A stretch of 64,000 nt of DNA from Lachnospiraceae bacterium (lineage in GTDB: Bacteria > Bacillota > Clostridia > Lachnospirales > Lachnospiraceae). The notes beneath the pieces were generated by a model. That model had not been told where the DNA came from and did no database searches. It saw only the letters and a program-made list of their open reading frames with translations. Position 1 is the first letter of the stretch; the number at the start of each line of letters is the position of its first letter. The DNA lies in contig CAJTHM010000002.1 in the NCBI GenBank assembly GCA_910576125.1, forward strand, positions 248,001 to 312,000, written 5' to 3'. Positions 12,140-26,409 of the stretch are shown piece by piece. The translations under genes and the position numbers were made by a program.

Positions 12140-12325
12140 AACACGCTGGTGTACGGCGGGGAGCGGAAGCTGGACTACCTGAACGAGGGAGGCTTCCAGA
12201 ACCGCAGCGGCCAGAGGATTCTGCACCCACGGCGCTGTGCAGGATGATGGAGTCCCTCACCGGGGACGCCAGGTTCATGGGGCAGATTACAGCCTCGAAT
12301 GAAAAACAGAAAAATGGGCAAAATA
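12140..12325 (+). pseudogene. remnant of an Rpn-like gene
   Basis: The frame from 12140 reads NTLVYGGERKLDYLNEGGFQ, which joins the N-terminal NTLVYGG of the intact Rpn genes directly to their C-terminal-half DYLNEGGFQGRSGQRI. Most of the middle is therefore deleted. A frameshift follows near 12235, after which ALCRMMESLTGD continues in another frame. It ends at the left site of module 1. Confidence 0.75.
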
Positions 12326-12330
12326 AAAAT

Positions 12331-12355
12331 GCAACATTTTGGTAGAGAATGTTGC
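12331..12355. repeat. recombination site L of invertible module 1
   Basis: 10-bp arm gcaacatttt, 5-bp core ggtag (12341-12345), arm agaatgttgc. The partner at 13039 carries the core as ctacc, its exact inverse. Outer bases extend the palindrome to aaaaat...attttt (12325-12361), so this site also looks like a bidirectional intrinsic terminator for leftward transcription from the promoter at 12402. Confidence 0.8.
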
Positions 12356-12375
12356 ATTTTTGCCGCTCACATATA

Positions 12376-12402
12376 TTATCGGAGGGAATCTCAAATACTT
12401 TA
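12376..12402 (-). promoter_or_regulatory. invertible sigma-28 promoter, module 1 (points left, OFF)
   Basis: On the - strand: TAAA (12402-12399), 15-bp spacer, TCCGATAA (12383-12376), a near-perfect SigD/FliA promoter. It lies inside the segment bounded by the two sites and reads away from csrA-fla5-fla6. Inversion between the cores would place it ~90 bp before the csrA start, reading into it. Confidence 0.85.
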
Positions 12403-12437
12403 GAGGTTCTGCATAAGAAATTTACGTTATCTTTTTT

Positions 12438-13016
12438 CTATAATCGTATCTTGGAGAACACCTCGTCCTTATCGTCCTGGTCGATACCCAGATATCGCTT
12501 CGTAATCTGATAAGAGGAATGGTTGTAAATGCTCATGAGCAATGCGGGGGGAGTCCCCTGCTTCCAGGCATGGTATCCGAAAGTCTTCCGCAGGGAATGG
12601 CAGCTTACATTGGCGTCAAATCCGGCAAAGGCCGCCGCAGCCTTTATGATCCGATAGGCCTGGAAACGGCTTAGGGGAAAGTTCTGCCGGATTTGGCTGT
12701 CAAATAGCCAGGAAGAAGCCGATTTCCTGCCTGGTGCCGCATAGGCTTCCAAAGTTTCCCGGATTTCCCGATTCACATAGACCCGGTTGGTCTTGCCGGT
12801 CTTCTGCTCCTTTACGGTCAAGTGCGTCCTCCACGTCCTGTCCTCATAGTGATAGACGTCCCCATAGGTCAGGTTCAGGATGTCCGAAATGCGCAAAGCC
12901 GTATTCAGGCCCATGACGATCAGCATATGGTTCCTGGGATTGGGCTTTTCCCACAGATAATATTCCTTGAAGATCTTCAGCCGGGCTGTGTCCTTGATGG
13001 GCTGTGTCGTACTCAT
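12438..13016 (-). CDS. tyrosine recombinase (FimB/FimE-size DNA invertase), module 1
   Basis: 192 aa. Catalytic residues of the tyrosine recombinase family are in place: Arg in NTALRISDIL (~42), H-x-x-R in CHSLRKTFGYH (~142), H in IYNHSSYQ (~167) and Tyr in KRYLGI (~175). There is no separate N-terminal SAM-like core-binding domain beyond a short helix, as in FimB/FimE (~200 aa). The start ATG at 13016 with ggaggcag upstream is only 22 bp from site R, so its promoter must lie in or beyond that site. It presumably catalyses inversion of its own segment. Confidence 0.9.
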   Translation of the reverse strand: MSTTQPIKDTARLKIFKEYYLWEKPNPRNHMLIVMGLNTALRISDILNLTYGDVYHYEDRTWRTHLTVKEQKTGKTNRVYVNREIRETLEAYAAPGRKSASSWLFDSQIRQNFPLSRFQAYRIIKAAAAFAGFDANVSCHSLRKTFGYHAWKQGTPPALLMSIYNHSSYQITKRYLGIDQDDKDEVFSKIRL

Positions 13017-13038
13017 GTCTGCCTCCTTTTCGTTTTCT

Positions 13039-13063
13039 GCAACATTCTCTACCAGAAAGTTGC
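13039..13063. repeat. recombination site R of invertible module 1
   Basis: Arms gcaacattct and agaaagttgc around the core ctacc (13049-13053), inverse of the L core ggtag. One arm base differs (agaaag for agaatg), a difference shared by all three R sites. There is no flanking T-run, so it is a weaker terminator than site L. Confidence 0.8.
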
Positions 13064-13109
13064 ATTATGTGAAAAACAGGCCCAGGAGCCGAAGAGAGGA
13101 GGCGGAGGG

Positions 13110-13352
13110 ATGCTGAGACTTACGGTAAGCCCGGAAGAGTATCTGCTGATCAATGACAATATAAAAATCATCTTCCTGGGCGGTTCCAAGAACAACCTGC
13201 GGATTATGGTAGATGCGCCCAGGGAAGTGAACATCGTCAGAAGCGCTGCTCTGGAAAACAGCATTCCAGATTCGGAGGAGAGGGCCGGAATGCCGCGTTA
13301 TTATGCGGTGCCTGAGGCTCCGGAGAGATACCGCAGGCCGAAATCCAGATAA
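13110..13352 (+). CDS. csrA: CsrA-like RNA-binding translational regulator (module 1)
   Basis: 80 aa. MLRLTVSPEEYLLINDNIKI and the second half (LRIMVDAPREVNIVR) match the CsrA/RsmA fold, a strand-swapped dimer that binds GGA in hairpin loops. Leu4 and Arg44, used by E. coli CsrA for RNA contact, are kept; Arg6-Arg7 are Val-Ser. A ~30-residue basic tail follows the core. The ribosome site is agaggaggcggaggg. It sits between invertible site R and fla5-fla6 and has no recognisable promoter of its own, so it should be transcribed with the flagellins when the segment is flipped. Other CsrA family members repress flagellin (hag) translation with FliW as antagonist; no fliW is in this window. Confidence 0.87.
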   Translation: MLRLTVSPEEYLLINDNIKIIFLGGSKNNLRIMVDAPREVNIVRSAALENSIPDSEERAGMPRYYAVPEAPERYRRPKSR

Positions 13353-13580
13353 GGATCGGGACGGGAACGGCGGTTCAAGGGCCCGAACAGCTGGTTCCCG
13401 GCTCGGTTGCTTATAGAGGCTGCCAGTGCGATATGCGCACAAGGCGGCAGTGGAACACTTTCCGGCTGACGCGGATGGGGCGGAAAGGCTGCCCCGGGTG
13501 GATCCGGAAAGGCAAAGCGAGATTCACAGAGAGAACAACTGACGCAAAAGGATTTGCGCAGTAATACAAGGAGGTAAATC
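13353..13580 (+). promoter_or_regulatory. csrA-fla5 intergenic leader with AGGA-loop hairpin
   Basis: No sigma-28 promoter found here. Just before the start lies a 6-bp stem cgcaaa/tttgcg with the loop AGGA (13543-13558, loop 13549-13552), then the ribosome site acaaggagg. An AGGA tetraloop on a short stem is the classic high-affinity CsrA target. The identical element precedes fla6, fla8 and fla9 and none of the fixed-class flagellins. Confidence 0.75.
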
Positions 13581-14786
13581 ATGGTAGTACAACACAATCT
13601 TACAGCAATGAATTCCAACCGTATGCTTGGCATCACCACAGGAGCCCAGGCAAAAGCCACAGAGAAGCTGTCATCCGGCTACAAGATCAACCGTGCGGCG
13701 GACGACGCGGCAGGGCTTGCCATCTCCGAGAAGATGAGGAAGCAGATCCGCGGCCTGACCCAGGCATCCGCCAACGCCCAGGACGGCATCAGCGCGGTGC
13801 AGACAGCAGAGGGCGCTTTGACAGAAGTGCACGACATGCTGCAGAGGATGAACGAGCTGGCGGTAAAAGCGGCCAACGGCACCATGTCCAAGAGCGACAG
13901 GGACGCGCTCCAGAGCGAGGTTGACCAGCTGGTGACGGAAATCGACCGTGTATCCACCACCACCAAGTTCAATGAGACCTACCTGCTGAAAGGCGCCAGC
14001 GGCGGTTCCGCAGGAAAGCTGGTATTTACCACTGCCACGACTAAGCTCACGTCCAACTTCGGAACCTGGAACGAGAATACCGGAACCACCAGCGTTAACG
14101 TTGGAACGACACAGACGCAGGCAGGCTCTTATACCTATAAGTCTGTTCAGGTAGGCGCAAAAACCACTTACATGTTGGTGGAGTCGTCCTTAAAAGATGG
14201 CAAAGGCGTGACAGAATGGGCAAAAGATCTTAGCACAGGCAATACGAAGGCTTTCACCAGCATGGACGCCTTGATGGCAGCCATCAAACGTGATAATGGC
14301 GAAGATGTCAAGAGCGTGTCCGCCTATTATGATGGAGGAGTGAAGCTGAAGATAGAGGCTTTCGCGAACCTGAACGATGCCATTGACTTCAGTCTCCACG
14401 TAGGAGCCGACTCCTCGGACGACAACAAGATCAACCTGAACATCTCTCAGATGAGCGCAAGAGGCCTGGGCATCAACGGTCTTGACATCAGCGGCAACGA
14501 TGACACCAAAGCGACGGCTGCAATCGATGTGGTTGCGGATGCGCTGTCAAGGGTGTCCGCGCAGCGCGCGACCCTGGGTGCCGTCCAGAACCGCCTGGAG
14601 CACACCATCGCCAACTTGGACAACGTAGTGGAGAACACCACAGCCGCTGAGTCCGCAATCCGTGACACGGATATGGCCACCCAGATGGTGACATACTCCA
14701 ACAACCAGATTCTGGCGCAGGCCGGCCAGGCGATGCTGGCACAGTCCAATCAGGCGAACCAGGGAGTCCTGTCCTTGCTTGGATAA
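13581..14786 (+). CDS. flagellin, switchable class (fla5)
   Basis: 401 aa. Conserved D0/D1 ends with class-specific differences: SKSDRDALQSE at ~105, ISQMSARGLGING and TTAAES near the C-terminus. The centre (~143-265) is short. ATG after acaaggagg. It lies 228 bp after csrA and 179 bp before fla6 with no strong terminator between, so csrA-fla5-fla6 is a plausible operon that depends on the invertible promoter. Confidence 0.97.
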   Translation: MVVQHNLTAMNSNRMLGITTGAQAKATEKLSSGYKINRAADDAAGLAISEKMRKQIRGLTQASANAQDGISAVQTAEGALTEVHDMLQRMNELAVKAANGTMSKSDRDALQSEVDQLVTEIDRVSTTTKFNETYLLKGASGGSAGKLVFTTATTKLTSNFGTWNENTGTTSVNVGTTQTQAGSYTYKSVQVGAKTTYMLVESSLKDGKGVTEWAKDLSTGNTKAFTSMDALMAAIKRDNGEDVKSVSAYYDGGVKLKIEAFANLNDAIDFSLHVGADSSDDNKINLNISQMSARGLGINGLDISGNDDTKATAAIDVVADALSRVSAQRATLGAVQNRLEHTIANLDNVVENTTAAESAIRDTDMATQMVTYSNNQILAQAGQAMLAQSNQANQGVLSLLG

Positions 14787-14927
14787 TTTTGTCATGAAAG
14801 CCTGAAAATCAAAGATTTCTTTCGAAAACACTTGATTTTCTGAACACGTTAGACAATGTCTGACAGCGGCAGCTGCCATGACTGCTTTAAGCGAAAGCCA
14901 GGGGCTGCCGTAAATGAAAGGAATTGA

Positions 14928-14943
14928 CGCAAAAGGATTTGCG
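14928..14943 (+). promoter_or_regulatory. AGGA-loop hairpin before fla6
   Basis: Stem cgcaaa/tttgcg with loop AGGA (14934-14937), followed by acaaggagg; predicted CsrA binding pair at the fla6 start. Confidence 0.7.
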
Positions 14944-14965
14944 CGGTCATACAAGGAGGTAAATT

Positions 14966-16171
14966 ATGGTAGTACAACACAACTTAACAGCAATGAATTC
15001 CAACAGAATGCTCGGCATCACCACAGGAGCACAGGCTAAGGCAACAGAGAAGCTGTCATCTGGCTACAAGATTAACCGTGCGGCGGACGATGCGGCAGGG
15101 CTTGCCATCTCCGAGAAGATGCGGAAGCAGATCCGCGGCTTGACCCAGGCATCCGCCAACGCCCAGGACGGCATCAGCGCGGTGCAGACAGCAGAGGGCG
15201 CTTTGACAGAAGTGCACGACATGCTGCAGAGGATGAACGAGCTGGCGGTAAAAGCGGCTAACGGCACCATGTCCAAGAGCGACAGGGACGCGCTCCAGAG
15301 CGAGGTTGACCAGCTGGTGACGGAAATCGACCGTGTGTCCACCACCACCAAGTTCAACGAGACCTACCTGCTGAAAGGCGCCAACAATGGTTCCGCAGGA
15401 AAGCTGGTGTTCACCACAGCGACTACGGCGCTGGGAAAGAATAGCATTACCATTTCTGATTCCACAACCGGTACGGGAAACATTAGCATTGCAACCAGTT
15501 CAGCGGTCACCGGTGGTACGGGAGTAGAAACAGGGAAATTGGGTAGTACGAATTATGTCCTGGTTCAGACATCCACCACAACCGGCAAGAGCGTGACGGA
15601 GCTGGCAAAGGATTTGACGAAAAATGGAGTAAAGGCGTTTACCAGCATGGACGCGCTGATGGCGGCTGTGAAACGGGACAATGGGGAGAACCTTAAGAGT
15701 GTGTCCTCCTATTATGAGGGCGGACTGAAGCTGAAAGTAGAGGCTTTCGCGAACCTGAACGATGCCATCGACTTCAGCCTCCACGTAGGAGCCGACTCCT
15801 CCGATGACAACAAGATCAACCTGAACATCTCTCAGATGAGCGCAAGAGGCCTGGGCATCAACGGGCTCAACATCAGCGGCAATGATGATACCAAGGCGAC
15901 AGCCGCAATCGATGTGGTGGCGGATGCATTGTCAAGGGTATCCGCCCAGCGCGCTACCCTGGGTGCAGTGCAGAACCGTCTGGAGCACACCATCGCCAAC
16001 CTGGACAACGTAGTGGAGAACACCACGGCAGCCGAGTCCGCAATCCGCGACACGGATATGGCTACCCAGATGGTGACATACTCCAACAACCAGATTCTGG
16101 CGCAGGCCGGTCAGGCGATGCTGGCACAGTCCAACCAGGCGAACCAGGGTGTCCTGTCTCTGCTTGGCTAA
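14966..16171 (+). CDS. flagellin, switchable class (fla6)
   Basis: 401 aa, sister of fla5: same length, same SKSDRDALQSE and ISQMSARGLGING markers, different centre (SITISDSTTGTGNISIATSS). Start from acaaggagg. No promoter of its own is visible; only weak hairpins lie between it and fla5. Co-transcription with csrA and fla5 is inferred. Confidence 0.97.
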   Translation: MVVQHNLTAMNSNRMLGITTGAQAKATEKLSSGYKINRAADDAAGLAISEKMRKQIRGLTQASANAQDGISAVQTAEGALTEVHDMLQRMNELAVKAANGTMSKSDRDALQSEVDQLVTEIDRVSTTTKFNETYLLKGANNGSAGKLVFTTATTALGKNSITISDSTTGTGNISIATSSAVTGGTGVETGKLGSTNYVLVQTSTTTGKSVTELAKDLTKNGVKAFTSMDALMAAVKRDNGENLKSVSSYYEGGLKLKVEAFANLNDAIDFSLHVGADSSDDNKINLNISQMSARGLGINGLNISGNDDTKATAAIDVVADALSRVSAQRATLGAVQNRLEHTIANLDNVVENTTAAESAIRDTDMATQMVTYSNNQILAQAGQAMLAQSNQANQGVLSLLG

Positions 16172-16201
16172 AAGTGAACTGAAAAAAATAGAACCACAAA
16201 G

Positions 16202-16226
16202 ACAGCGCAGCTCTCTGCGCTGTTTT
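16202..16226 (+). terminator. terminator of the csrA-fla5-fla6 unit
   Basis: acagcgcag / ctgcgctgt with a 4-nt loop, then ttttt. Confidence 0.88.
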
Positions 16227-16359
16227 TGCGGTTTCGGAAGATTGTTCGGGAGGTACAAAACGCACAAACTGTAACCGTGATTTCGGGGTTGTCAACTCTG
16301 GTGGAATGCGTTATCATAAAATCAGTCCCTTTTTGAGGCAAAGGAGGCATTTTATTTTG

Positions 16360-16782
16360 TAGCGTCAGGGAGAGCGGGCGGTTCCGCTATACATTGCATC
16401 TTCTATGACTCATGAACTGACCCCTTTTATAAAAGCGTTGGCGGCGACCTGGCGAATTGACTGGCTCTACCGCGATGAGGTGGAGAATAGCTTGCACCCG
16501 CTGCTACAGGGGGAGATGGCGCGATGGGTGATTCGCATGGCGAACGCAGGGCTGCATGTATTGATAAGCTCCCACAGCGACACGATGGCAAGCCGACTTA
16601 ATAACTTGTTCATGCTGACAGAGTTGAACAGGAGAAGAGCGGATTATGGAATGTTGGCGGAGCTGGGATTGACGGAGGCAGATTTGCTGCATCCGGATGT
16701 GGAGGTTGGCATATATGAATTCCGGAGCGAGGAAGATGGGAAGCTTTTGAGAAAATCAGGGGATTTCACAAAAATGCTATAG
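16360..16782 (+). pseudogene. truncated AAA-family ATPase (C-terminal part)
   Basis: The open frame (first ATG 16405) encodes the C-terminal end of an ABC/SMC-like AAA ATPase. A Walker-B-type DEVENSLHP at ~25-33 and the switch histidine motif ISSHSD (~55) are present; the N-terminal half with Walker A is absent. Residues upstream of the ATG (VPLYIASSMTHEL) still look like the family, so the start is probably lost rather than chosen. These ATPases usually work in defence or plasmid-type two-gene systems; this copy is unlikely to be active. Confidence 0.7.
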
Positions 16783-16799
16783 GGACAAGCTCTTCGTTG

Positions 16800-17275
16800 A
16801 CGAGCATTCTTTTCGGCCATATTATTCGGCAGCCTTTTTGTATCTGAATGTAGAGGCCCTTTTCAGAGAAAGGAAGCTGCCAAAAGCATTAAGTAATTAC
16901 AAAATGCATATTATTTTACTGGTCAAAGAGATGAAAGGTGGCCCTTCGCCGGATTTGTCTTCTAAGGATATCGACAAATACTGCAATCGGTTACTGAAAG
17001 CCCTGGAAAACGGTAAGCTAAAGCAATGTGCCCTGGAAGCCGGTGATAAATTTGAAGATATAAGGGAAAAGTGGATTAAAGCAAAGGGAGAGCAATATAA
17101 ATCCGGTATTAAAGACAGTGCGGAATTTCGGAACTTCCTGATGAAAGAAATTCATGGGGCGATGGACGGGCATTCGGCGGAGAGTTTGTATACGGGATAT
17201 GTCATAAAAGTAGACTTGGATAAGCACAATACCTTGTTGTCAGCTACAAGATTGTCCGTGATGGGAACCAGGTGA
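16800..17275 (+). CDS. hypothetical protein following the ATPase remnant (possibly incomplete at 5' end)
   Basis: The clear open frame has a TTG at 16838 (145 aa from there), but the frame is also open upstream to the end of the ATPase remnant (KLFVDEHSFRPYYSAAFL), without ATG or GTG. The original start may have been lost or may be coupled to the upstream gene. The protein is charged and helical; I do not recognise it. It probably was the partner gene of the ATPase in a two-gene accessory system. Confidence 0.5.
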
Positions 17276-17320
17276 GGGCAATCAATGTGCGGCTCATAGA
17301 GCCAAAGGTCGAAAAACAAC

Positions 17321-17347
17321 TAAAGTAAATTTAAAATCGTCCGATAT
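17321..17347 (+). promoter_or_regulatory. sigma-28 promoter of fla7
   Basis: TAAA 17321-17324, 15-bp spacer, TCCGATAT 17340-17347. Confidence 0.92.
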
Positions 17348-17354
17348 AATTATT

Positions 17355-17542
17355 AGTCGGAGCAAATCCGGGGGGGCAGTTATGCCTCCCCCGGATTTCT
17401 CGTCCAGGAATCCCAAGCGATTCGCACGATTGCGCGGGCATTCCCGATAGTCGGCTGATGGAAAGCCCGGACGTGCGAACCGGGCGGAAAGTCGGCCAGA
17501 TAGCCTCAGGGAAGAGGCATACTATTCAAGGAGGAATATATT
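17355..17542 (+). promoter_or_regulatory. structured flagellin leader RNA, copy 5
   Basis: P2 loop tcgcacg (17422-17428), P3 gcccgg/ccgggc with loop cgtgcga (17472-17478), P4 gcctc-agggaa-gaggc, ribosome site caaggagg. Same architecture as copies 1-4. Confidence 0.75.
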
Positions 17543-18781
17543 ATGGTAGTACAACACAATTTAACGGCTATGAACTCCAACAGAATGTTGGGAATTACCA
17601 CCGGCGCTCAGGCAAAGGCGACAGAGAAGCTGTCTTCCGGATATAAGATCAACCGCGCGGCTGACGATGCGGCAGGGCTTGCCATCTCCGAGAAGATGCG
17701 GAAGCAGATTCGCGGCCTGACCCAGGCATCCGCCAACGCCCAGGACGGCATCAGCGCAGTACAGACTGCTGAGGGCGCGCTGACCGAAGTGCATGACATG
17801 CTGCAGAGAATGAACGAACTGGCAGTAAAGGCCGCTAACGGCACCATGTCCGAGAGCGACAGAGATGCTATCCAGAGTGAGGTTGACCAGCTGGTGACTG
17901 AGATTGACCGTGTCGCTACGACGACTAAGTTCAATGAGACATATTTATTGAAAGGCAGCAATGGTGGTGTGGCTGGGTCTCTGAAGTATACTGACGCTAA
18001 TACTGCGGGTATAAGTGGCGTGACATTTGATTCGACAACCGGAACTGCGAGTGTTGCACAGGCCGGGGGAAGTTATCAAACATCGGCAGGTGAGACTCTT
18101 ACGACTAAAGATTTTACCGTCGGTTCTACGACATATGTCTTGGTAGAAAGTGTAACGGCTTTAGCAGGAGCTAGCAGTAAAACAAGTGTAAAAGAAGCAG
18201 CAGAAGGTATTGCTGATGCAGCGGGTAAAAAGGGCTTTACGAGCATGGATTCTCTGATGGCAGCCATCAAGCGCGACCATGGCGAGAACATCAAGACAGT
18301 GACTTCTTACATTGATAAATCAGCGAATAATGCTGTGAAGCTGAAGGTAGAAGCTTTCGCCGACCTGAACGATGCCATCGACTTCAGTCTCCACGTAGGT
18401 GCGGACTCCTCCGATGACAACAAGATCAACCTGAACATCTCCTCCATGGGCGCAAGAGGCCTCGGCATCAACGGCCTGACCATCACCGGCTCCAACGATG
18501 ACAACGCCACAGCTTCCATCGATGTAGTAGCCGATGCCCTGGAGAGAGTGTCCGCACAGCGCGCGACCTTGGGTGCAGTCCAGAACCGTCTGGAGCACAC
18601 CATCGCCAACTTGGACAACGTAGTGGAGAACACCACTTCCGCAGAGTCCGCAATCCGCGACACGGATATGGCTACCCAGATGGTGACCTACTCCAACAAC
18701 CAGATCCTGGCGCAGGCCGGCCAGGCAATGCTGGCACAGTCCAACCAGGCGAACCAGGGCGTCCTGTCCCTGCTGGGCTAA
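17543..18781 (+). CDS. flagellin (fla7)
   Basis: 412 aa with its own sigma-28 promoter and kissing-loop leader. Intermediate in type: SSMGARGLGING and TTSAESAIRD mix features of both classes. Variable centre ~143-280. It is the only fixed-promoter flagellin to the right of module 1. Confidence 0.97.
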   Translation: MVVQHNLTAMNSNRMLGITTGAQAKATEKLSSGYKINRAADDAAGLAISEKMRKQIRGLTQASANAQDGISAVQTAEGALTEVHDMLQRMNELAVKAANGTMSESDRDAIQSEVDQLVTEIDRVATTTKFNETYLLKGSNGGVAGSLKYTDANTAGISGVTFDSTTGTASVAQAGGSYQTSAGETLTTKDFTVGSTTYVLVESVTALAGASSKTSVKEAAEGIADAAGKKGFTSMDSLMAAIKRDHGENIKTVTSYIDKSANNAVKLKVEAFADLNDAIDFSLHVGADSSDDNKINLNISSMGARGLGINGLTITGSNDDNATASIDVVADALERVSAQRATLGAVQNRLEHTIANLDNVVENTTSAESAIRDTDMATQMVTYSNNQILAQAGQAMLAQSNQANQGVLSLLG

Positions 18782-18830
18782 TCCCTGGCTGTAGGTTCAG
18801 TACAAAAGAAAAAGACATAAGAAAACCGGA

Positions 18831-19304: not shown

Positions 19305-20273
19305 ATGGCGGAGAAAGACATATTGGAGAAGAGCCTGCTGTCATATGAGGACGTGTTCACGGACTGCATCAACACGCTGGTGTACGGCGGCAGGAGGCGG
19401 CTGGAGGAAGGGCGCACCCAGCCTGCGCCCACGGAGAGCTTCTACCAGGGTGCGGAGGGGCTCCGCAACCAGCTCTGCGACACCAGCAGGTACCTGTTGG
19501 AGGAGGGGCGCATCGTAGCCCAGTACCTGATAGAGAACGAGACGGGGCTGCGCAGGAAGCAGATCCTGCGGAAGGCATCCTACCAGGGCGGCGCCTACAG
19601 GCAGCAGCTGGGGAACGGCCGCCCGGCCTATGCGGTGATCGGCATCGTGATGGCCTGGAGCGGGAAGGGGAGCCGCATCCCCCGCAGCCTGCACCAGCTG
19701 CTGGAGGAGGACGGCGTGCCTGCAGACCTGCTGGAGCAGGTGGACGAGGCCCGGATGGAGGTGATCCACATGAACAGCCTCCCGGCAGAGACCCGAAGGA
19801 AGTTCACGGGCGACATGGGCTTCGTGGCGGACTTCCTGAACGAGGGGAGCTTCCAGGGTCGAAGCGGCCAGAGGATACGGCACCCGTCAGCGCTGTGCAG
19901 GATGATGGAGACGCTCACCGGGGACAGCAGGTTCACGGGGCAGATAGGGGAGCTCATGGAAAAGGAGAGTAAGGGGGAGGACGTCATGATGTGCGAGTAT
20001 ATTGATATGCTGGAGGCCAGGGGGGAAGCCAGAGGAGTGGCGATAGGAGAAGCCAGAGGAGTGGCGATAGGAGAAGCCAGAGGAGTGGCGATAGGAGAAG
20101 CCAGAGGAGTGACGATAGGAGAGGCGCGGGGAGAGACGAAGCTGTCCTCGCTGCTGGAGCGTCTATATGAGCAGGGCAGGGACGAGGAAGCGAAGCAGGC
20201 AGTGCTGGACACTACGGCGCGTGCAAGGCTGTACCAGGAGCTGCATATCCCGAATTTCAGCACCAACCCTTAA
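19305..20273 (+). CDS. Rpn family nuclease / putative transposase, second copy
   Basis: 322 aa, paralogue of the 302-aa protein at 7874 (shared DILEKSLLSYEDVFTDCIN and RKFTGDMGFVADFLNEG). The extra length is in the tail: four in-frame copies of an 8-residue unit (EARGVAIG) at residues ~241-272, encoded by a 24-bp tandem repeat. Ribosome site gggggag before ATG. GC-rich like the flagellins' ends, unlike the AT-rich glycan genes further on. Confidence 0.75.
   Translation: MAEKDILEKSLLSYEDVFTDCINTLVYGGRRRLEEGRTQPAPTESFYQGAEGLRNQLCDTSRYLLEEGRIVAQYLIENETGLRRKQILRKASYQGGAYRQQLGNGRPAYAVIGIVMAWSGKGSRIPRSLHQLLEEDGVPADLLEQVDEARMEVIHMNSLPAETRRKFTGDMGFVADFLNEGSFQGRSGQRIRHPSALCRMMETLTGDSRFTGQIGELMEKESKGEDVMMCEYIDMLEARGEARGVAIGEARGVAIGEARGVAIGEARGVTIGEARGETKLSSLLERLYEQGRDEEAKQAVLDTTARARLYQELHIPNFSTNP
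20025..20120 (+). repeat. 24-bp tandem repeat inside the Rpn-like gene
   Basis: Four copies beginning gaagccagagga and ending cgatagga; the last copy has gtgacg for gtggcg. Being a multiple of three, copy-number change would lengthen or shorten the protein tail without a frameshift. Confidence 0.9.
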
Positions 20274-20486
20274 CTATGGCTAAGACTCGAACGGCGATTG
20301 CAGCCGGCATGATGGATGGAAGTACAGACCATTAAGTGCTCTATGGAGAGGATTTACCTCCTACAAGGAGGCTTGTTATCATTGCGGAGCCACCTGATTT
20401 GATGTCTGCCCAGGGCGGCCGCAGGGTGGGGGGAACTCCAGGGCACCATTCCTCACAGCCCTGTAGCGGGGAGGTTTCTTCCAAAA

Positions 20487-20521
20487 ACTTTGCCAGAGAC
20501 ATGGGCTACGTGGCGGATTTC
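20487..20521 (+). pseudogene. short remnant of an Rpn-like gene
   Basis: Encodes FARDMGYVADF, matching FTGDMGFVADF of the intact copies, and is joined directly to a flagellin 3' end. The 20274-20486 stretch before it shows no gene I can support. Confidence 0.65.
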
Positions 20522-20595
20522 CGGCGCAGGCCGGTCAGGCGATGCTGGCACAGTCCAACCAGGCGAACCAGGGCGTTCTGTCTCTGCTCGGCTAA
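20522..20595 (+). pseudogene. 3' remnant of a flagellin gene
   Basis: Encodes AGQAMLAQSNQANQGVLSLLG and a stop, identical to the last 21 residues of the intact flagellins. It is followed by the same ~200 bp of downstream sequence (terminator, flank, site L) as fla8 at 23446. A flagellin gene was deleted here, leaving only its tail. Confidence 0.92.
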
Positions 20596-20644
20596 TCTCT
20601 GGCTGTCGCTTCCGCACAGAAGAGAAAGACATAAGGATAACGAA

Positions 20645-20683
20645 AGGCATGACGCAGGAGGAATCCTGTGCCATGCCTTTTCC
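20645..20683 (+). terminator. terminator of the deleted flagellin
   Basis: aggcatgacgcagga / tcctgtgccatgcct, then tttt; nearly identical to the fla8 terminator at 23494. Confidence 0.8.
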
Positions 20684-20793
20684 CTTGGAGAGGAGAATCT
20701 GCCCCTGGACGGTTCTGAAACTCTGGAACCAGTAAAATGTTGCAGGACAGGAAGCGGCGAATGGTATTCTAAGAAATGGGTAAAATAAAAAAT

Positions 20794-20818
20794 GCAACAT
20801 TCTTGGAAAGAATGTTGC
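20794..20818. repeat. recombination site L of invertible module 2
   Basis: Arms gcaacattct and agaatgttgc around the core tggaa (20804-20808). Flanking aaaaat/attttt make it a long palindrome that can also terminate leftward transcription. Confidence 0.8.
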
Positions 20819-20838
20819 ATTTTTGCTGCTCACATATA

Positions 20839-20865
20839 TTATCGGTGGGAATCCGAAATACTTTA
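20839..20865 (-). promoter_or_regulatory. invertible sigma-28 promoter, module 2 (points left, OFF)
   Basis: On the - strand: TAAA (20865-20862), 15-bp spacer, ACCGATAA (20846-20839). It would read into csrA-fla8 after inversion, about 110 bp from the csrA start. Confidence 0.83.
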
Positions 20866-20910
20866 GGGGTCTTCGGAAGAATTTATCCAATTTTTTCTAT
20901 GAAGTTTTTT

Positions 20911-21489
20911 CTATAAACGTATCCTGGAGAACACCTTGTCCTTGTCGTCCTGGTCGATGCACAGATATCTTTTGGTCACCTGATAAGAGGAATGGTTATA
21001 GATTGCCATGAGCAGCGCAGGGGGCGTCCCCTGTTTCCAGGCATGATACCCGAAAGTCTTCCGCAGGGAGTGGCAGCTGATATTGGTGTCCACCCCGGCA
21101 AAAGTCGCGGCCTTTTTTATGATACGAAATGCCTGGAAACGGCTTAAGTGCTGCTCTGCCTGTATCTGGCTGCTAAACAGCCAGGAAGAAGCTTCCTTTT
21201 CTTTCGGATTCAGATACATTTCCAGTATATCCCGGATTTCGCGGTTGATATAGATTCGATTGGTCTTTCCGGTTTTCTGCTCCCTTACGGTCAGATGGGT
21301 CTTCCAGGCACCTTTTTCATAGCGATAGATATCCCCATAGGTCAGCCCCAGGATATCTGAGATACGGAGAGCCGAATTCAGGCCAATGACAATCAGCATG
21401 TGATTTCTGGGATTCGGTTTTTGCAGCAGATAGTATTCTTTGAAGCGTTTTAACTGGGCTGTGTCTTTAATGGGCTGTGTCGTACTCAT
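20911..21489 (-). CDS. tyrosine recombinase, module 2
   Basis: 192 aa, same length as the other two copies and closest to module 3. Catalytic set visible: SALRISDIL, CHSLRKTFGYH, YNHSSYQ and KRYLCI. ATG at 21489 with gaggagga upstream, 24 bp from site R. The frame is also open upstream through the site and into csrA antisense, but the ribosome site and the alignment with the sister copies fix the start here. Confidence 0.9.
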   Translation of the reverse strand: MSTTQPIKDTAQLKRFKEYYLLQKPNPRNHMLIVIGLNSALRISDILGLTYGDIYRYEKGAWKTHLTVREQKTGKTNRIYINREIRDILEMYLNPKEKEASSWLFSSQIQAEQHLSRFQAFRIIKKAATFAGVDTNISCHSLRKTFGYHAWKQGTPPALLMAIYNHSSYQVTKRYLCIDQDDKDKVFSRIRL

Positions 21490-21512
21490 GGTTGTCCTCC
21501 TCGAATTTTTCT

Positions 21513-21537
21513 GCAACATTCTTTCCAAGAAAGTTGC
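21513..21537. repeat. recombination site R of invertible module 2
   Basis: Arms gcaacattct and agaaagttgc around the core ttcca (21523-21527), the exact inverse of tggaa in site L. Confidence 0.8.
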
Positions 21538-21600
21538 ATTTTGCCGGAGCTGATTCAGGCATATCGGCGGCACAAATGTAAAGAGACGGGAGGCGGAGGG

Positions 21601-21846
21601 ATGCTGAGACTGACGGTCAGTCCGGAAGAGTATCTGATGATCAACGACAATATAAAGATTATCTTTCTGGGCGGTTCGAAGAACAACATGCGAATCATGG
21701 TAGATGCCCCCAGGGACGTGCATATCGTCCGCAGCGCCGCATTGGAGAACAGCATTCCCAGTCCGGAGGAGAGGGCGAAGCTGCCGAAGTACCATGCGGT
21801 GCCGGACGCGCCGGAGAAGTACCGGAGCCGGAAAGCGAAGCGGTAA
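21601..21846 (+). CDS. csrA: CsrA-like RNA-binding translational regulator (module 2)
   Basis: 81 aa. Same CsrA core as the module 1 copy, with Met30, Asp39 and His41 variants and Arg44 kept; basic tail ends RSRKAKR. Start after gacgggaggcggaggg. It is followed by degenerate GGA-containing repeats and fla8. No promoter is visible between site R and the start, which fits control by the inverted sigma-28 promoter. Confidence 0.87.
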   Translation: MLRLTVSPEEYLMINDNIKIIFLGGSKNNMRIMVDAPRDVHIVRSAALENSIPSPEERAKLPKYHAVPDAPEKYRSRKAKR

Positions 21847-22010
21847 CCGTAGCAGAAAATGGAGGGCGATGACCGAAGCCGGAAAGCGAGGGGATAATCG
21901 CGGCCGGAAGGCGAAGCGATAACCATAGCAGAAAATGGAGGGCAATGGCTGGAACCGGAAAGCGAAGCGATAACCCCGGCAGACAATCGAGGTAATAACC
22001 GAAACGGAAG
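21847..22010 (+). repeat. degenerate repeats after csrA of module 2
   Basis: Imperfect units such as agccggaaagcga, agcagaaaatggaggg and gcgataacc repeat through this spacer; the frame of csrA does not continue into it. A related, more regular array follows csrA of module 3. Confidence 0.6.
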
Positions 22011-22191
22011 CAAAGGCTCAGGGCCCGGGCCGGAGGCTGCCGATTCGGTTACTATAAAAAATCATTGCGATGCCGCAAGGCGGGCGGTGGTTCTATGCTC
22101 CTCAGGAAGCGAAGCGGAATGGGGAGGGATGCCCCTTAAAATGGAGCCGGGACGGCGGACATGGGGCAGGCGGACAAAAACATGCAACTGA

Positions 22192-22207
22192 CGCAAAAGG
22201 ATTTGCG
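22192..22207 (+). promoter_or_regulatory. AGGA-loop hairpin before fla8
   Basis: Stem cgcaaa/tttgcg, loop AGGA (22198-22201), then acaaggagg: predicted CsrA target. No sigma-28 promoter lies between csrA and fla8. Confidence 0.72.
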
Positions 22208-22229
22208 CGGTAATACAAGGAGGTAAATT

Positions 22230-23444
22230 ATGGTAGTACAACACAACTTAACAGCAATGAATTCCAACAGAATGCTGGGCATCACCACAGGCGCCCAGGC
22301 GAAAGCCACAGAGAAGCTGTCTTCCGGCTACAAGATCAACCGTGCGGCAGACGATGCGGCAGGGCTTGCCATCTCCGAGAAGATGAGGAAGCAGATCCGC
22401 GGCCTGACCCAGGCTTCCGCCAATGCCCAGGACGGCATCAGCGCAGTGCAGACAGCAGAGGGCGCTCTGACCGAAGTGCATGACATGCTGCAGAGAATGA
22501 ATGAGCTGGCAGTAAAGGCCGCTAACGGCACCATGTCCGAGAGCGACAGGGACGCTATCCAGAGCGAAGTGGATCAGCTGGTAACGGAAATCGACCGTGT
22601 TTCCAACACGACCAAGTTCAATGAGACCTATCTGCTGAAGGGAACATCTAACAGCGGGGCTGCCGGGAGTTTGACATTTACGACAGCAAGTGGGGCGATA
22701 AGCGGTCTTACGGGCGTAAGCGGCTTTAACTCTACTACAGGTACAGCTTCTGCGGCAGTAACAAGCGTAACAAGCGGAGTTACAGGCCTCGCATCAGGAA
22801 AAAGCGTCCAGGTAGGTACTACGACATACTATCTGGTTGAAACAGCAGCAGCCGGCACAAGCCCTGCTAAAGTGGCAGAGGCGAACAAGACTGGCACCAC
22901 CAAGGCCTTTACCAGCATGGATTCCCTGATGGCGGCAATCAAGCGTGATAACAGTGCGGACATCAAGACGGTATCTTCTGTGAATAATGGCGGCACAATC
23001 AGTCTTAAGATTGAGACTTTCGCAGACATGAACAGCGCTATTGACTTCAGTCTGCATGTAGGAGCCGACTCTTCTGATGACAACAAGATTAACCTGAACA
23101 TCTCCCAGATGAGCGCAAGAGGCCTGGGAATCAATGGTCTGACCATCACTGGCGACAATGACGATAACGCTACAGCTGCCATTGATGTGGTTGCCGATGC
23201 TCTTGCCAAGGTATCTGGTCAGCGTGCCACCCTGGGTGCAGTCCAGAACCGTCTGGAGCACACCATCGCCAACCTGGACAACGTAGTGGAGAACACCACC
23301 GCTGCAGAGTCTGCTGTTCGCGATACGGATATGGCTACTCAGATGGTGACCTACTCCAACAACCAGATTCTGGCACAGGCTGGCCAGGCGATGCTGGCAC
23401 AGTCCAACCAGGCGAACCAGGGCGTTCTGTCCCTGCTGGGCTAA
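22230..23444 (+). CDS. flagellin, switchable class (fla8)
   Basis: 404 aa. Switchable-class markers ISQMSARGLGING and NTTAAESAVRD, plus ADALAKVSGQRATLG where others have ERVSAQRATLG. The centre (~143-270) is distinct. Start from acaaggagg. It follows csrA of module 2 and ends with its own terminator; immediately downstream is module 3. Confidence 0.97.
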   Translation: MVVQHNLTAMNSNRMLGITTGAQAKATEKLSSGYKINRAADDAAGLAISEKMRKQIRGLTQASANAQDGISAVQTAEGALTEVHDMLQRMNELAVKAANGTMSESDRDAIQSEVDQLVTEIDRVSNTTKFNETYLLKGTSNSGAAGSLTFTTASGAISGLTGVSGFNSTTGTASAAVTSVTSGVTGLASGKSVQVGTTTYYLVETAAAGTSPAKVAEANKTGTTKAFTSMDSLMAAIKRDNSADIKTVSSVNNGGTISLKIETFADMNSAIDFSLHVGADSSDDNKINLNISQMSARGLGINGLTITGDNDDNATAAIDVVADALAKVSGQRATLGAVQNRLEHTIANLDNVVENTTAAESAVRDTDMATQMVTYSNNQILAQAGQAMLAQSNQANQGVLSLLG

Positions 23445-23493
23445 TCTCTGGCTGTCGCTTCCATACAGAAGAGAAAGACATAAGGATAACGAA

Positions 23494-23533
23494 AGGCATG
23501 ACGCAGGAGGAATCCTGTGCCATGCCTTTTCCC
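23494..23533 (+). terminator. terminator of fla8
   Basis: aggcatgacgcagga / tcctgtgccatgcct, then tttt. Confidence 0.88.
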
Positions 23534-23642
23534 TTGGAGAGGAGAATCTACCCCTGGAGGGCTCTGAAACTCTGGAACCAGTAAAATGTTGCAGGACAGG
23601 AAGCGGCGAATGGTATTCTAAGAAATGGGTAAAATAAAAAAT

Positions 23643-23667
23643 GCAACATTCTATGGAAGAATGTTGC
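23643..23667. repeat. recombination site L of invertible module 3
   Basis: Arms gcaacattct and agaatgttgc around the core atgga (23653-23657), flanked by aaaaaat and attttt. Confidence 0.8.
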
Positions 23668-23687
23668 ATTTTTGCCGTTCACATATA

Positions 23688-23714
23688 TTATCGGAGGGAA
23701 TCCGAAATACTTTA
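23688..23714 (-). promoter_or_regulatory. invertible sigma-28 promoter, module 3 (points left, OFF)
   Basis: On the - strand: TAAA (23714-23711), 15-bp spacer, TCCGATAA (23695-23688). Same position relative to site L as in modules 1 and 2. Confidence 0.85.
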
Positions 23715-23759
23715 GGGGTTTTCGGAAGAATTTATCCGATCTTTTTGACAATCTTTTTT

Positions 23760-24338
23760 CTACAATCGTATCTTGGAGTACACTTCATCCTTGTCGTCCT
23801 GGTCGATGCACAGATATCGTTTCGTAATCTGATAAGAGGAATGGTTATAGATTGCCATGAGCAGGGCGGGGGGCGTTCCCTGTTTCCAGGCATGGTATCC
23901 GAAGGTCTTCCGCAGGGAGTGGCAGCTGATATTGGTGTCCACCCCGGCGAAGGCCGCTGCCCTCTTAATGATGCGGAAGGCCTGGAAACGGCTTAAGGGG
24001 CGCTCTCCCTGTATCTGGCTGCCGAACAGCCAGGAGGCGGGCTCCTTTTCCCGGGGGGTTACATACATTTCCAGAGTTTCCCGGATTTCCCGGTTGATAT
24101 AGATCTGATTGGTCTTTCCGGTCTTCTGCTCCGTCACGGTGAGATGGGTCTTCCAGGCGTCTTTTTCATAGTGGTAGATATCCCCATAGGTGAGCCCCAG
24201 GATATCCGAGATGCGGAGCGCGGAATTCAGGCCGATGACGATCAGCATATGGTTTCTGGGGTTGGGCTTCTGCAGCAGGTAGTACTCTTTGAAGCGTTTT
24301 AGCTGGGCGGTGTCTTTAATGGGCTGTGTGGTGCACAT
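23760..24338 (-). CDS. tyrosine recombinase, module 3
   Basis: 192 aa. SALRISDIL, CHSLRKTFGYH, YNHSSYQ and KRYLCI give the R...HxxR...H...Y set. The start ATG at 24338 (gaggagga upstream) lies 26 bp from site R. The C-terminus DDKDEVYSKIRL is shared with the sister copies. Very similar to module 2, in line with tandem duplication of the whole module. Confidence 0.9.
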   Translation of the reverse strand: MCTTQPIKDTAQLKRFKEYYLLQKPNPRNHMLIVIGLNSALRISDILGLTYGDIYHYEKDAWKTHLTVTEQKTGKTNQIYINREIRETLEMYVTPREKEPASWLFGSQIQGERPLSRFQAFRIIKRAAAFAGVDTNISCHSLRKTFGYHAWKQGTPPALLMAIYNHSSYQITKRYLCIDQDDKDEVYSKIRL

Positions 24339-24363
24339 AGTTCTCCTCCTCGTAAATTTTTCT

Positions 24364-24388
24364 GCAACATTCTTCCATAGAAAGTTGC
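24364..24388. repeat. recombination site R of invertible module 3
   Basis: Arms gcaacattct and agaaagttgc around the core tccat (24374-24378), exact inverse of atgga in site L. Confidence 0.8.
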
Positions 24389-24455
24389 AATTTGCGGTAT
24401 CACAATCCAAGCTTACCAGCGGCGGCGGAAAAGTAAAGAGTCAGGGGGTGGAGGG

Positions 24456-24698
24456 ATGCTGAGGCTTACAGTGAGCCCGGAAGAATATCTGATGATAAAC
24501 GACAATATAAAGATCATCTTCCTGGGCGGTTCCAAGAACAACATGCGGATTATGGTAGATGCCCCCAGGGACGTGCACATCGTCCGCAGCGCCGCATTGG
24601 AGAACAGCGTCCCCAGCCCGGAGGAGAGGGCGAAGATGCCGAAGTACCATGCGGTGCCGGAAGCGCCGGAGAAGTACCGGAGCCGGAAAATGAGGTAA
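24456..24698 (+). CDS. csrA: CsrA-like RNA-binding translational regulator (module 3)
   Basis: 80 aa, nearly the same as the module 2 protein (VPSPEERAKMPKYHAVPEAPEKY in the tail region). Start after a gggggtggaggg ribosome site, 68 bp right of site R. Arg44 kept. Predicted to be co-expressed with fla9 only after inversion of module 3. Confidence 0.87.
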   Translation: MLRLTVSPEEYLMINDNIKIIFLGGSKNNMRIMVDAPRDVHIVRSAALENSVPSPEERAKMPKYHAVPEAPEKYRSRKMR

Positions 24699-24945
24699 TG
24701 CCCGAAACCGGGAAGCAGGGAAACAACCGGAGCCGGAAAGCGAGGTAATGCCCGAAACCGAGAAGCAGGGAAACAACCGGAGCCGGAAAGCAGGGTAATA
24801 ACCGGAGCCAGAAAGCGAGGTAATGTCCGAAGCCGGAGCAGCGCAACAACCGGAGCCGGAGAGCGAGGTAATGTTCGTGGCCGAAAAGCAAGGCAACAAC
24901 CGCAACCCAAAAACAGGGTAATAACCGAAACGAGAGCAATGGCTC
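24699..24945 (+). repeat. GGA-rich degenerate tandem repeats between csrA and fla9
   Basis: Units built on aaccggagccggaaagcg and aggtaatgcccgaaacc repeat about five times with variation. I count about eleven GGA triplets on the + strand within ~210 nt, many in ccggagccgg contexts that can pair. It is transcribed between csrA and fla9 if the promoter is ON. Whether it binds CsrA is a hypothesis. Confidence 0.65.
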
Positions 24946-25117
24946 AGGGCCCGGGTCTGCCGCTCCCGGTTCGGTTACTATAAAAAATCATTGCGATGCC
25001 GCAAGGCGGGCAGTGATTCCATGCTCCTCAGGAAGCGAAGCGGAATGGGGAGGGGCGCCCCATAAAAGTGGAGCCGGGACGGCGGATATGGGGCAGACAG
25101 CAAGAACAAGCAACTGA

Positions 25118-25133
25118 CGCAAAAGGATTTGCG
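25118..25133 (+). promoter_or_regulatory. AGGA-loop hairpin before fla9
   Basis: Stem cgcaaa/tttgcg, loop AGGA (25124-25127), then acaaggagg; predicted CsrA target. Confidence 0.72.
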
Positions 25134-25155
25134 CGGTAATACAAGGAGGTAAATT

Positions 25156-26409
25156 ATGGTAGTACAACACAACTTAACAGCAATGAATTCCAACAGAATG
25201 CTTGGCATCACCACAAAGACACAGGCAAAGGCAACAGAGAAGCTGTCTTCCGGCTACAAGATCAACCGTGCGGCTGACGACGCGGCAGGGCTGGCCATCT
25301 CCGAGAAGATGCGGAAGCAGATCCGCGGGCTCACCCAGGCTTCCGCCAACGCCCAGGACGGCATCAGCGCAGTGCAGACTGCTGAAGGCGCACTGACAGA
25401 AGTGCACGACATGCTCCAGAGAATGAACGAGCTGGCAGTGAAGGCCGCCAACGGCACCATGTCCGAGAGCGACAGGAATGCTATCCAGAACGAGGTGGAT
25501 CAGCTGGTGACTGAGATTGACCGTGTGGCCACCACCACCAAGTTCAACGAGACTTATCTGCTGAAAGGGTCTCACGGCGGTGCTGCGGGAAGCTTGAGCT
25601 ATACTAAGGTGGCGGCTACTTTGTCGACCAATACCAGCACCGGAACTGAGCTTGCCATCAACGAAACGACCGGAACGGCAGCAGTTACACTTAGTAACAC
25701 TACCAGCCAGACCTTGAATGATGGTGGCAAAGCTACAACAAAAGAATTTGTGGTAGGAAGCACTACTTATATTCTGGTGGAAAGTACGGCTGCAAAAACG
25801 GGTTCCGATACTAAGACCAGCGTTAAAGAAGCGGCGGAAGAGCTGACTAAGAAGGCTAATACACAAGGCTTTACTAGTATGGATGCTCTGATGTCAGCTA
25901 TCAAGCGTGATCACAGTTCGGAAATCAAGACAGTGACATCTTATATTAATTCCAGCAATAAGGTGGAACTGAAAGTAGAAGCGTTTGCCGACCTGAACGA
26001 TGCCATCGATTTCAGTCTCCATGTAGGTGCCGATTCCTCCGATGACAACAAGATCAACCTGAACATCTCCTCCATGAGCGCCAGGGGACTTGGCGTCAAC
26101 GGCCTGACCATCACGGGCAACAACGATGACAACGCCACCGGAGCCATCGATGTGGTAGCCGACGCACTGGAGAGGGTATCCGCCCAGCGCGCCACCCTGG
26201 GTGCCGTCCAGAACCGTCTGGAGCACACCATCGCCAACCTGGACAATGTAGTGGAGAACACCACCGCAGCCGAGTCCGCTGTCCGCGACACGGATATGGC
26301 TACCCAGATGGTGACCTACTCCAACAACCAGATCCTGGCGCAGGCCGGCCAGGCGATGCTGGCACAGTCCAACCAGGCGAACCAGGGCGTTCTGTCTCTG
26401 TTAGGCTAA
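25156..26409 (+). CDS. flagellin, switchable class (fla9)
   Basis: 417 aa. It has the TTAAESAVRD marker of the switchable class, but SSMSARGLGVNGLTITGNNDDNAT like fla4, and its centre is also closest to fla4. It is thus a mosaic. Residues 20-22 read TKTQAK where all others have TGAQAK. Start from acaaggagg. Confidence 0.97.
   Translation: MVVQHNLTAMNSNRMLGITTKTQAKATEKLSSGYKINRAADDAAGLAISEKMRKQIRGLTQASANAQDGISAVQTAEGALTEVHDMLQRMNELAVKAANGTMSESDRNAIQNEVDQLVTEIDRVATTTKFNETYLLKGSHGGAAGSLSYTKVAATLSTNTSTGTELAINETTGTAAVTLSNTTSQTLNDGGKATTKEFVVGSTTYILVESTAAKTGSDTKTSVKEAAEELTKKANTQGFTSMDALMSAIKRDHSSEIKTVTSYINSSNKVELKVEAFADLNDAIDFSLHVGADSSDDNKINLNISSMSARGLGVNGLTITGNNDDNATGAIDVVADALERVSAQRATLGAVQNRLEHTIANLDNVVENTTAAESAVRDTDMATQMVTYSNNQILAQAGQAMLAQSNQANQGVLSLLG

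Follow-up and report, generated by a model that had tools for sequence, protein, structure and literature searches.

A 64,000-nucleotide stretch of a Lachnospiraceae bacterium (the window; positions 248001-312000 of contig CAJTHM010000002.1, C2, in a 6.0-Mb draft genome) carries, within a cluster of flagellin genes, three DNA segments that are real and well conserved and very probably form a flagellin phase-variation system. Each segment is predicted to be flipped by its tyrosine recombinase between inverted 27-bp sites, and the sigma-28 promoter inside it, once flipped, would likely drive an adjoining operon of csrA and flagellin. The parts and their orientation, the intact catalytic residues of the recombinases, a site core that is shared by the two arms and private to each element, and the occurrence of both orientations across relatives can be read directly from the DNA. 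Here, OFF denotes the orientation in which the promoter points away from csrA, and ON the flipped one.

Ahead of the window, the flagellin cluster opens with fliW-csrA, flaG, fliD and a pair of flagellins; nine further flagellins follow inside the window. The names fliW (from position and sequence), flaG and fliD are our own, and csrA and the flagellins were named by Pfam. The genome also encodes FliA (266.1 bits, cut-off 189.6). The site pattern TGCAAC-N15-GTTGCA has six exact matches in the window, forming three inverted pairs (the arms in Table 1), and none in 100 shuffles. Each ~0.7-kb segment between paired arms encloses one recombinase gene and, near the left arm, one sigma-28 promoter, both on the minus strand. 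Downstream of each pair lie csrA and a flagellin, namely fla5 with fla6 at switch 1, fla8 at switch 2 and fla9 at switch 3; fla6, which lacks its own csrA and its own site, could be read only along with fla5. The promoter pattern TAAA-N16-CCGATA is matched eight times in the window, against 0.13 matches expected. Five matches are forward and precede fla1, fla2, fla3, fla4 and fla7; the three on the minus strand lie one inside each segment (12377-12402, 20840-20865 and 23689-23714). The two flagellins just upstream of the window have a sigma-28 site each, which brings the cluster flagellins with their own site to seven.

A preliminary description of this DNA had reported the three segments with their inverted sites, 192-residue recombinases and promoters, all assembled OFF. 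Every one of these parts was recovered at the positions it gave, the sites measuring 27 bp, and its claim that the other flagellins of the window have sigma-28 promoters extends to the two upstream genes. Furthermore, coordinate arithmetic places the -10 end of the inverted promoters 91, 108 and 112 bp before the csrA start, in agreement with the 90-110 bp or so proposed there.

Table 1 Features of the three putative switches and their adjoining genes (window positions)
Feature	Position	Strand	Remarks
Switch 1 left arm	12330..12356		core TGGTAGA; leftward reading gives a hairpin, then a U tract
Switch 1 sigma-28 promoter, TAAA-N15-TCCGATAA	12376..12402	-	points away from csrA (OFF); pattern scan
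Switch 1 tyrosine recombinase, 192 residues	12438..13016	-	open reading frame, Pfam
Switch 1 right arm	13038..13064		site pattern
csrA paralog 1, 80 residues	13110..13352	+	PF02599
fla5 leader	13542..13580	+	AGGA-loop hairpin, then ATACAAGGAGGT; like form precedes fla6, fla8 and fla9
Flagellin fla5	13581..14786	+	open reading frame, Pfam
Flagellin fla6	14966..16171	+	own promoter not found; transcript probably shared with fla5
Switch 2 left arm	20793..20819		core TTGGAAA; terminator-like on minus strand
Switch 2 sigma-28 promoter, TAAA-N15-ACCGATAA	20839..20865	-	OFF; pattern scan
Switch 2 tyrosine recombinase, 192 residues	20911..21489	-	ATG at 21489; open reading frame, Pfam
Switch 2 right arm	21512..21538		site pattern
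csrA paralog 2, 81 residues	21601..21846	+	PF02599
Flagellin fla8	22230..23444	+	open reading frame
Switch 3 left arm	23642..23668		core TATGGAA; terminator-like on minus strand
Switch 3 sigma-28 promoter, TAAA-N15-TCCGATAA	23688..23714	-	OFF; pattern scan
Switch 3 tyrosine recombinase, 192 residues	23760..24338	-	ATG at 24338; open reading frame, Pfam
Switch 3 right arm	24363..24389		site pattern
csrA paralog 3, 80 residues	24456..24698	+	PF02599
Flagellin fla9	25156..26409	+	open reading frame

All three recombinases match PF00589 (79.4-80.2 bits, cut-off 27.1). Their 192 residues are counted from the ATG of M(S/C)TTQPIKDT, the listed open reading frames of switches 2 and 3 beginning further upstream. 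Compared with the recombinase of switch 2, that of switch 1 has 79% identity and that of switch 3 has 89%, and the match to XerA spans residues 110-261 of 263. No promoter was found for the recombinase gene when one was looked for. The models PRK09870 and PRK09871 (NCBIfam), which we take to be FimB and FimE and whose titles read tyrosine-type DNA invertase, score 31.7-45.7 bits against curated cut-offs of 221-222. With scores so far under the cut-offs, membership of a FimB-type family was rejected, and the earlier label "FimB-type" is right only in a loose sense. The segments encode a PF00589 recombinase only, and no serine recombinase of the kind used by a Hin-type switch. The layout, with recombinase gene and promoter within the invertible segment and the flagellin operon outside, is that of a Hin-type switch, and a promoter between inverted sites that adjoin the target gene is the general layout of invertible-promoter systems.

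To assess conservation, contigs from the genomes of 84,980 species were scanned, which gave 346 recombinase relatives; the best 80 of the 346 were kept, and the closest named relatives among these 80 are mostly Lachnospiraceae or Acetatifactor records. With the own genome counted, a relative occurs in 30 of 117 near-relative genomes (E<=1e-40) and in 29 of 397 genomes of the family (E<=1e-45). Carriers of the element include the cultured relatives Petralouisia muris NM01 and Lachnospiraceae bacterium GAM79. The usual gene order is recombinase, arm, csrA, flagellin. All loci from the searches were pooled with the window and identical recombinase DNA was removed, leaving 136 distinct recombinase genes. 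Complete elements, with csrA, inverted arms and a strict promoter, number 75, and 73 of these have a flagellin on the csrA strand in the stretch fetched. The catalytic R, K, second R and second H are present in 132 of the 132 copies that could be aligned, and the HxxR histidine and the tyrosine in 131.

The complete elements are OFF in 73 cases and ON in two (L012 and L085). Under a 50:50 coin, two ON of 75 would have a probability of 1.5e-19, a figure to be taken only as a guide, as the genomes compared are related and not independent. Such an excess of OFF among assemblies points to OFF as the usual majority state. Among the OFF elements, the recombinase reads away from csrA in 66 and towards it in seven (L055, L062, L086, L110, L134, L136 and L197), the latter having half-sites of type GTAACAC. 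Promoter position and direction are equal in both groups, and it is thus the promoter and the arms that are conserved, not the gene order. That the reading direction of the recombinase causes the OFF bias was rejected, since OFF occurs with the gene either way.

Two relatives thus carry the segment in the flipped orientation, evidence that was not available to the preliminary description, and their alignments support its ON/OFF reading, as does the core shared by the two arms of an element (see below). Compared with the window elements W1, W2 and W3 and with L014, the segment of L012 aligns only inverted; the same is true of L085 against L067 and L074 (73-78% identity over 687-728 bp). The csrA-side flanks of L012 and L085 align unflipped to the OFF relatives (71-76%), and in the OFF-OFF controls (W1-W3, L067-L074) the segment also aligns unflipped. 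In BLAST, the strand changes at the arms: L012 984-1725 matches 24393-23640 reversed, and from 1697 onward L012 matches forward from 24363. By our own reading of L074 against L085, the inner half-sites TGCAAC (promoter side) and TACAAC (recombinase side) are swapped along with the segment.

The sites themselves carry a further signature of recombination. The analysis of their cores kept 65 of 98 csrA elements, requiring a TGCAAC-type half-site and 18 matching positions, and the figures come from the 52 elements with a site length of 27. The central 7 bp (positions 11-17) are equal in both arms of 51 of these 52 elements, and in 32 of 2652 cross-element pairs. More specifically, positions 11-16 differ between the arms of none of the 52 elements and position 17 is the same in 51, whereas positions 11-16 differ in 39-74% of pairs from different elements. 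At position 10, just outside the core, the own arms differ in 17 of 52. The selection favours similar arms, yet it does not favour positions 11-16 over position 10. The simplest reading is that recombination needs homology in a 6-7 bp overlap, which would be the crossover region. The three cores in the window differ pairwise at three or more positions. Inversion between arms of different switches would turn round kilobases of flagellin genes, and with such cores it should be rare. The earlier description of three independent switches is thus supported for the sites, whose cores differ; the half-sites are common to all three, so that an enzyme may also serve sites other than its own.

These findings bear on a different explanation, in which the segments are old and immobile and the csrA-flagellin units serve as silent archives, donors of gene conversion for the expressed flagellins. 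The strong OFF bias would suit such archives, and so would two decaying elements: L208, in which the recombinase match is split in two pieces with the sites intact and an OFF promoter, and L205, in which a recombinase remnant and a promoter facing away from csrA were seen and sites were not found. We nonetheless consider this explanation quite unlikely, given the intact catalytic residues, the matching cores and the two ON genomes with breakpoints at the arms. In addition, arms, promoter spacing and terminator side are conserved in relatives, and dead DNA would not conserve them.

The terminator side refers to a property of the left arm. In the 65 elements analyzed, the outward flank of the left arm contains on average 7.15 T in 10 positions and that of the right arm 2.46, the left exceeding the right in 64. 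A simple terminator test is passed by 56 of 65 left arms and 3 of 65 right arms. In the window, the left arms of switches 2 and 3 were picked up as terminator-like on the minus strand by a scan that is weak when taken alone, with 22 sites found and 15.6 in shuffles. Modeled with the promoter-side half held constant, the OFF transcript is more stable than the ON transcript in 64 of 64 elements (means -20.4 and -11.7), the folding set being the same 65 elements minus L012, which is ON.

Several observations weigh against a switch of this kind. Only two of the 75 complete elements are ON, both in metagenome-assembled genomes of other species, and no strain showed both orientations. Since the left flanks mostly fail to align between ON and OFF relatives, it is the segment and the right flank that carry the comparison. 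Twelve of the 136 copies have csrA but no inverted arms at a score of at least 13, and 18 have csrA and arms but no strict promoter. In L219, a one-contig genome, a right-arm site and an away-facing promoter occur without a recombinase within 1.5 kb. Real termination is uncertain because the stems of the left arms are GC-poor, and the predicted hairpins of W2 and W3 are only a little weaker in ON (-17.8 and -18.5) than in OFF (-19.1 and -19.3), the main OFF/ON difference there being the absent U tract. Lastly, the earlier statement that fla5, fla6, fla8 and fla9 lack a sigma-28 promoter stands for strict matches, but upstream of fla9 there is a look-alike with one mismatch, TAAA-N16-CGGATA at 25063, whose end is 67 bp from the gene. 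The best look-alikes of fla8 have two mismatches, and those of fla5 and fla6 three.

The look-alike before fla9 and the bias to OFF could also indicate that the assembled orientation is the expressed one. In that case, a housekeeping sigma factor or a promoter close to the right arm would drive csrA-flagellin, and the sigma-28 promoter would serve something on the left or make antisense RNA. We regard this as very unlikely. The csrA start follows the right repeat at a median distance of 56 bp among 78 relatives (43, 58 and 62 bp in the window), a gap with scant space for a second promoter. Across all 84 elements that have csrA and arms, the stretch from right arm to csrA contains no sigma-28-like match; the scan of relatives did not extend to housekeeping promoters. 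As for a leftward gene, the longest open reading frame on the left is on the minus strand in 21 of 62 elements, on the plus strand in 40 and absent in one, a strand that is not conserved, and the left arm is terminator-like in the very direction in which the OFF promoter reads.

A third explanation would make the segment a small mobile element, with the arms as its ends and the promoter carried by chance. Phage records gave 148 matches, all below 60% identity and used as context only; among them are streptococcal phage records in which related proteins are annotated as integrases or site-specific recombinases (38-40% identity) and two unannotated faecal 'Bacteriophage sp.' records (47-48%). 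Furthermore, 31 of the 136 recombinase copies have no adjacent csrA, some of them at contig ends. Against such mobility, in 77 of 78 relatives the distance from the right repeat to csrA falls within 20-132 bp, and across 87 elements the recombinase distances correlate with those of csrA and flagellin (Mantel r 0.51 and 0.37; none of 999 permutations as high), a result still compatible with some exchange. In viral contigs, 170 stretches matched a pattern, and none encodes a relative. Taken together, a mobile origin of this kind appears extremely unlikely, and phase variation by promoter inversion is the reading pursued below.

The csrA genes of the three switches belong to PF02599 (59.9-61.3 bits, cut-off 27) and fall below the CsrA equivalog model TIGR00202 of NCBIfam (31.2-32.2 bits, cut-off 70.1). 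The genus was surveyed in 101 genomes, of which 79 encode a canonical CsrA (82-94 bits) and 31 a second type (56-67 bits), the latter mostly adjoining a recombinase match; one 33-bit match in G067 was left out of the second-type count. Passages of PMC7652899 describe L4 and R44 of CsrA as important, and passages of PMC7829508 give V51 and N55 as the contacts of FliW on CsrA. The 96 paralogs retain Arg44 in all cases and Leu4 in 75, and Arg6 in none. I or V at position 51 and N at position 55 are absent from all 96, which sets the paralogs apart from a FliW-regulated CsrA, and their FliW-contact region passes into a tail such as PEERAKLPKYYAEPEHPEKYRKK. Among canonical CsrA proteins from the genus, a set chosen by a start motif requiring R or A at position 6, I51 is present in 30 of 30 and N55 in 27 of 30.

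In the leaders of csrA-linked flagellins (L012-L091), a GGA-loop hairpin occurs in 62 of 75 cases, with stems that vary in sequence and keep their pairing (by eye). The Shine-Dalgarno region ATACAAGGAGGT of fla5, fla6, fla8 and fla9 agrees by eye at 11 of 12 positions with the consensus RUACARGGAUGU obtained by systematic evolution of ligands by exponential enrichment (passages of PMC7652899). The hairpins, together with a Shine-Dalgarno region that resembles a CsrA site, suggest that CsrA probably controls the translation of flagellin. It is conjecture that the paralog is the CsrA acting here, and so is the choice of leaders it would act on. A hairpin leader specific to csrA-linked flagellins was rejected, as unlinked leaders also have the GGA loop (8 of 14; near-duplicates are included in both counts), and the hairpin is hence no marker of paralog targets.

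From these elements, the following course can be proposed. Strand exchange would take place inside the central 7 bp, and each pair of arms would recombine only with itself, the cores being different. In OFF, the promoter would fire into the left arm, and transcription should end at the hairpin and U tract of that arm. In ON, transcription should pass the right arm, which forms a weaker hairpin and lacks a U tract, and continue into csrA and flagellin. This would add a likely antigenically distinct flagellin to the seven flagellins with their own sigma-28 sites, or exchange it for them, and would also bring in a CsrA paralog that should ignore FliW. Within the population, OFF would prevail and ON would be found in a minority. 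The nine flagellins of the window are 74-89% identical over their full length and 32-71% identical in their central regions, where the closest to fla9 is fla4 (71%). Given this divergence of the central regions, a switch would change the variable and probably exposed part of the filament.

Other layouts of the same parts were found in relatives. Five csrA-flagellin cassettes in four loci (L015, L067, L074 and L085, the last with two) have no recombinase or promoter just upstream and keep a lone right-arm-like site. In L015, this site closely matches the right arm of the neighboring element; in L067, L074 and L085 the half-sites are worn and mainly the core TATAACA is common with the neighboring element. 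One promoter could reach several cassettes by a longer inversion. In L027 (5371-7599) and L038 (5312-7360), divergent flagellins flank a recombinase/sigma-28 element and csrA was not found, which probably represents a two-way exchange of flagellins. As expected of two-way switches, and with a sample of two, neither arm has a strong U tract (5 and 5 T of 10 in L027, 4 and 3 in L038). In L042 (4122-6691; Eubacterium sp. 14-2, its neighbor with Big_2 domains) and L060 (3757-6683), the recombinase family and a sigma-28 promoter stand beside secreted-looking proteins, and the arm on the far side is terminator-like; the module may here serve a purpose other than flagellin switching. A prediction that these two would be two-way without a terminator arm failed, as the right arm has a U tract (9 and 8 T of 10); in a reading made after the fact, both may instead be one-way switches that target the left gene. 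Distant csrA-flagellin pairs that have no recombinase in the 3 kb fetched also exist outside the family. Of these loci, L221 has a sigma-28-like site towards csrA at -177, and L222, L224 and L229 have a match away from csrA at about -161.

Further features were noted in and around the cluster. A flagellin 3'-end remnant (20525-20595, by eye) lies left of switch 2 and is followed by a hairpin (20643-20680) that is the same as the one after fla8 (23492-23529), a trace of duplication of the whole unit. A 322-residue open reading frame at 19305-20273 with GEARGVAI repeats has no Pfam match; by eye, a fragment resembling it adjoins switch 1 on the left, near 12150-12300, and L167:10249-11133 encodes a full relative. 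At 26633-28270, in the interval from the flagellins to a glycosyltransferase, lies the gene of a protein with AAA-ATPase-like and PDDEXK_9 features. An additional sigma-28-like site, TAAA-N16-GCCGATAT, at 37839-37866 precedes genes for an IspD-like protein, an epimerase, a glycerophosphotransferase and SPASM proteins, perhaps a sigma-28-controlled set for flagellin glycosylation. Elsewhere in genome G000 (C12:16369 and C15:122628; L165 and L166), two divergent flagellin genes outside the cluster have no TAAA-type sigma-28 site in the stretch fetched.

A literature search of Creative Commons-licensed papers, which leaves most subscription journals and preprints uncovered, listed no description of this switch, and the putative system would be a variant of invertible-promoter phase variation not met among the papers listed. 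Gut flagellins, including those of Lachnospiraceae, have been studied as Crohn's disease antigens and TLR5 ligands. If flagellin genes are phase variable, the flagellin on display cannot be read from a genome or metagenome, and the switch state would have to be known for serology, for TLR5 assays and for 'flagellome' counts. In passages of Neville et al. (2013; PMC3720852), one fliC of Eubacterium eligens and two of Roseburia intestinalis (species taken from locus tags) are given as having no promoter before them; hidden invertible promoters are one possible reason. The switch, if true, would also be a case of a recombination arm serving as terminator and of a CsrA family tied to single flagellins, and a second, independently built case of the textbook Salmonella switch. 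More boldly, and as a tentative idea that we consider, as a whole, less likely than not, the Salmonella flagellar switch may have been re-invented in Lachnospiraceae from unrelated parts: a tyrosine recombinase would flip a sigma-28 promoter, an arm would double as OFF terminator, and a FliW-blind CsrA would repress the resident flagellins while the new one is made. Three insulated cores would then give eight flagellin states per line, and relatives would use the module for two-way exchange, for several cassettes and for other surface proteins.

Salmonella hin/fljBA shares with the present system a promoter near one end of the invertible segment, a target made up of a flagellin and a regulator that likely acts post-transcriptionally, and other flagellins encoded elsewhere. 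It differs in that Hin is a serine recombinase, whereas a tyrosine recombinase is found here, and a CsrA paralog stands in the place of FljA, before rather than after the flagellin. Moreover, there are three elements with private cores here, as well as a terminator-like arm and several fixed-promoter flagellins. The history of flagellar phase variation in Salmonella is treated in passages of PMC11868660. The flg and cwpV switches of Clostridioides difficile (RecV) likewise use a tyrosine recombinase and an inversion upstream of the target, which for flg concerns flagella. For cwpV, passages of PMC2784873 and PMC7446863 describe a predicted terminator in OFF and 96% of the genomic DNA of strain 630 in the OFF state. 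In contrast to the present elements, the cwpV promoter lies outside the repeats and the terminator is formed or lost by inversion, RecV is one enzyme required for several switches, and flg controls the flgB operon, not single flagellins. The fim system of Escherichia coli is similar in its invertible promoter and in its short tyrosine recombinases without an N-terminal core-binding domain; FimB and FimE are, however, encoded outside the invertible segment, and their family models score far below cut-off here. Finally, the Hag-FliW-CsrA system of Bacillus subtilis has counterparts in the fliW-csrA pair of this genome, in the GGA-loop flagellin leaders and in a Shine-Dalgarno region that resembles a CsrA site, whereas the extra CsrA family described here stands in operons with single flagellins and has no FliW contact residues.

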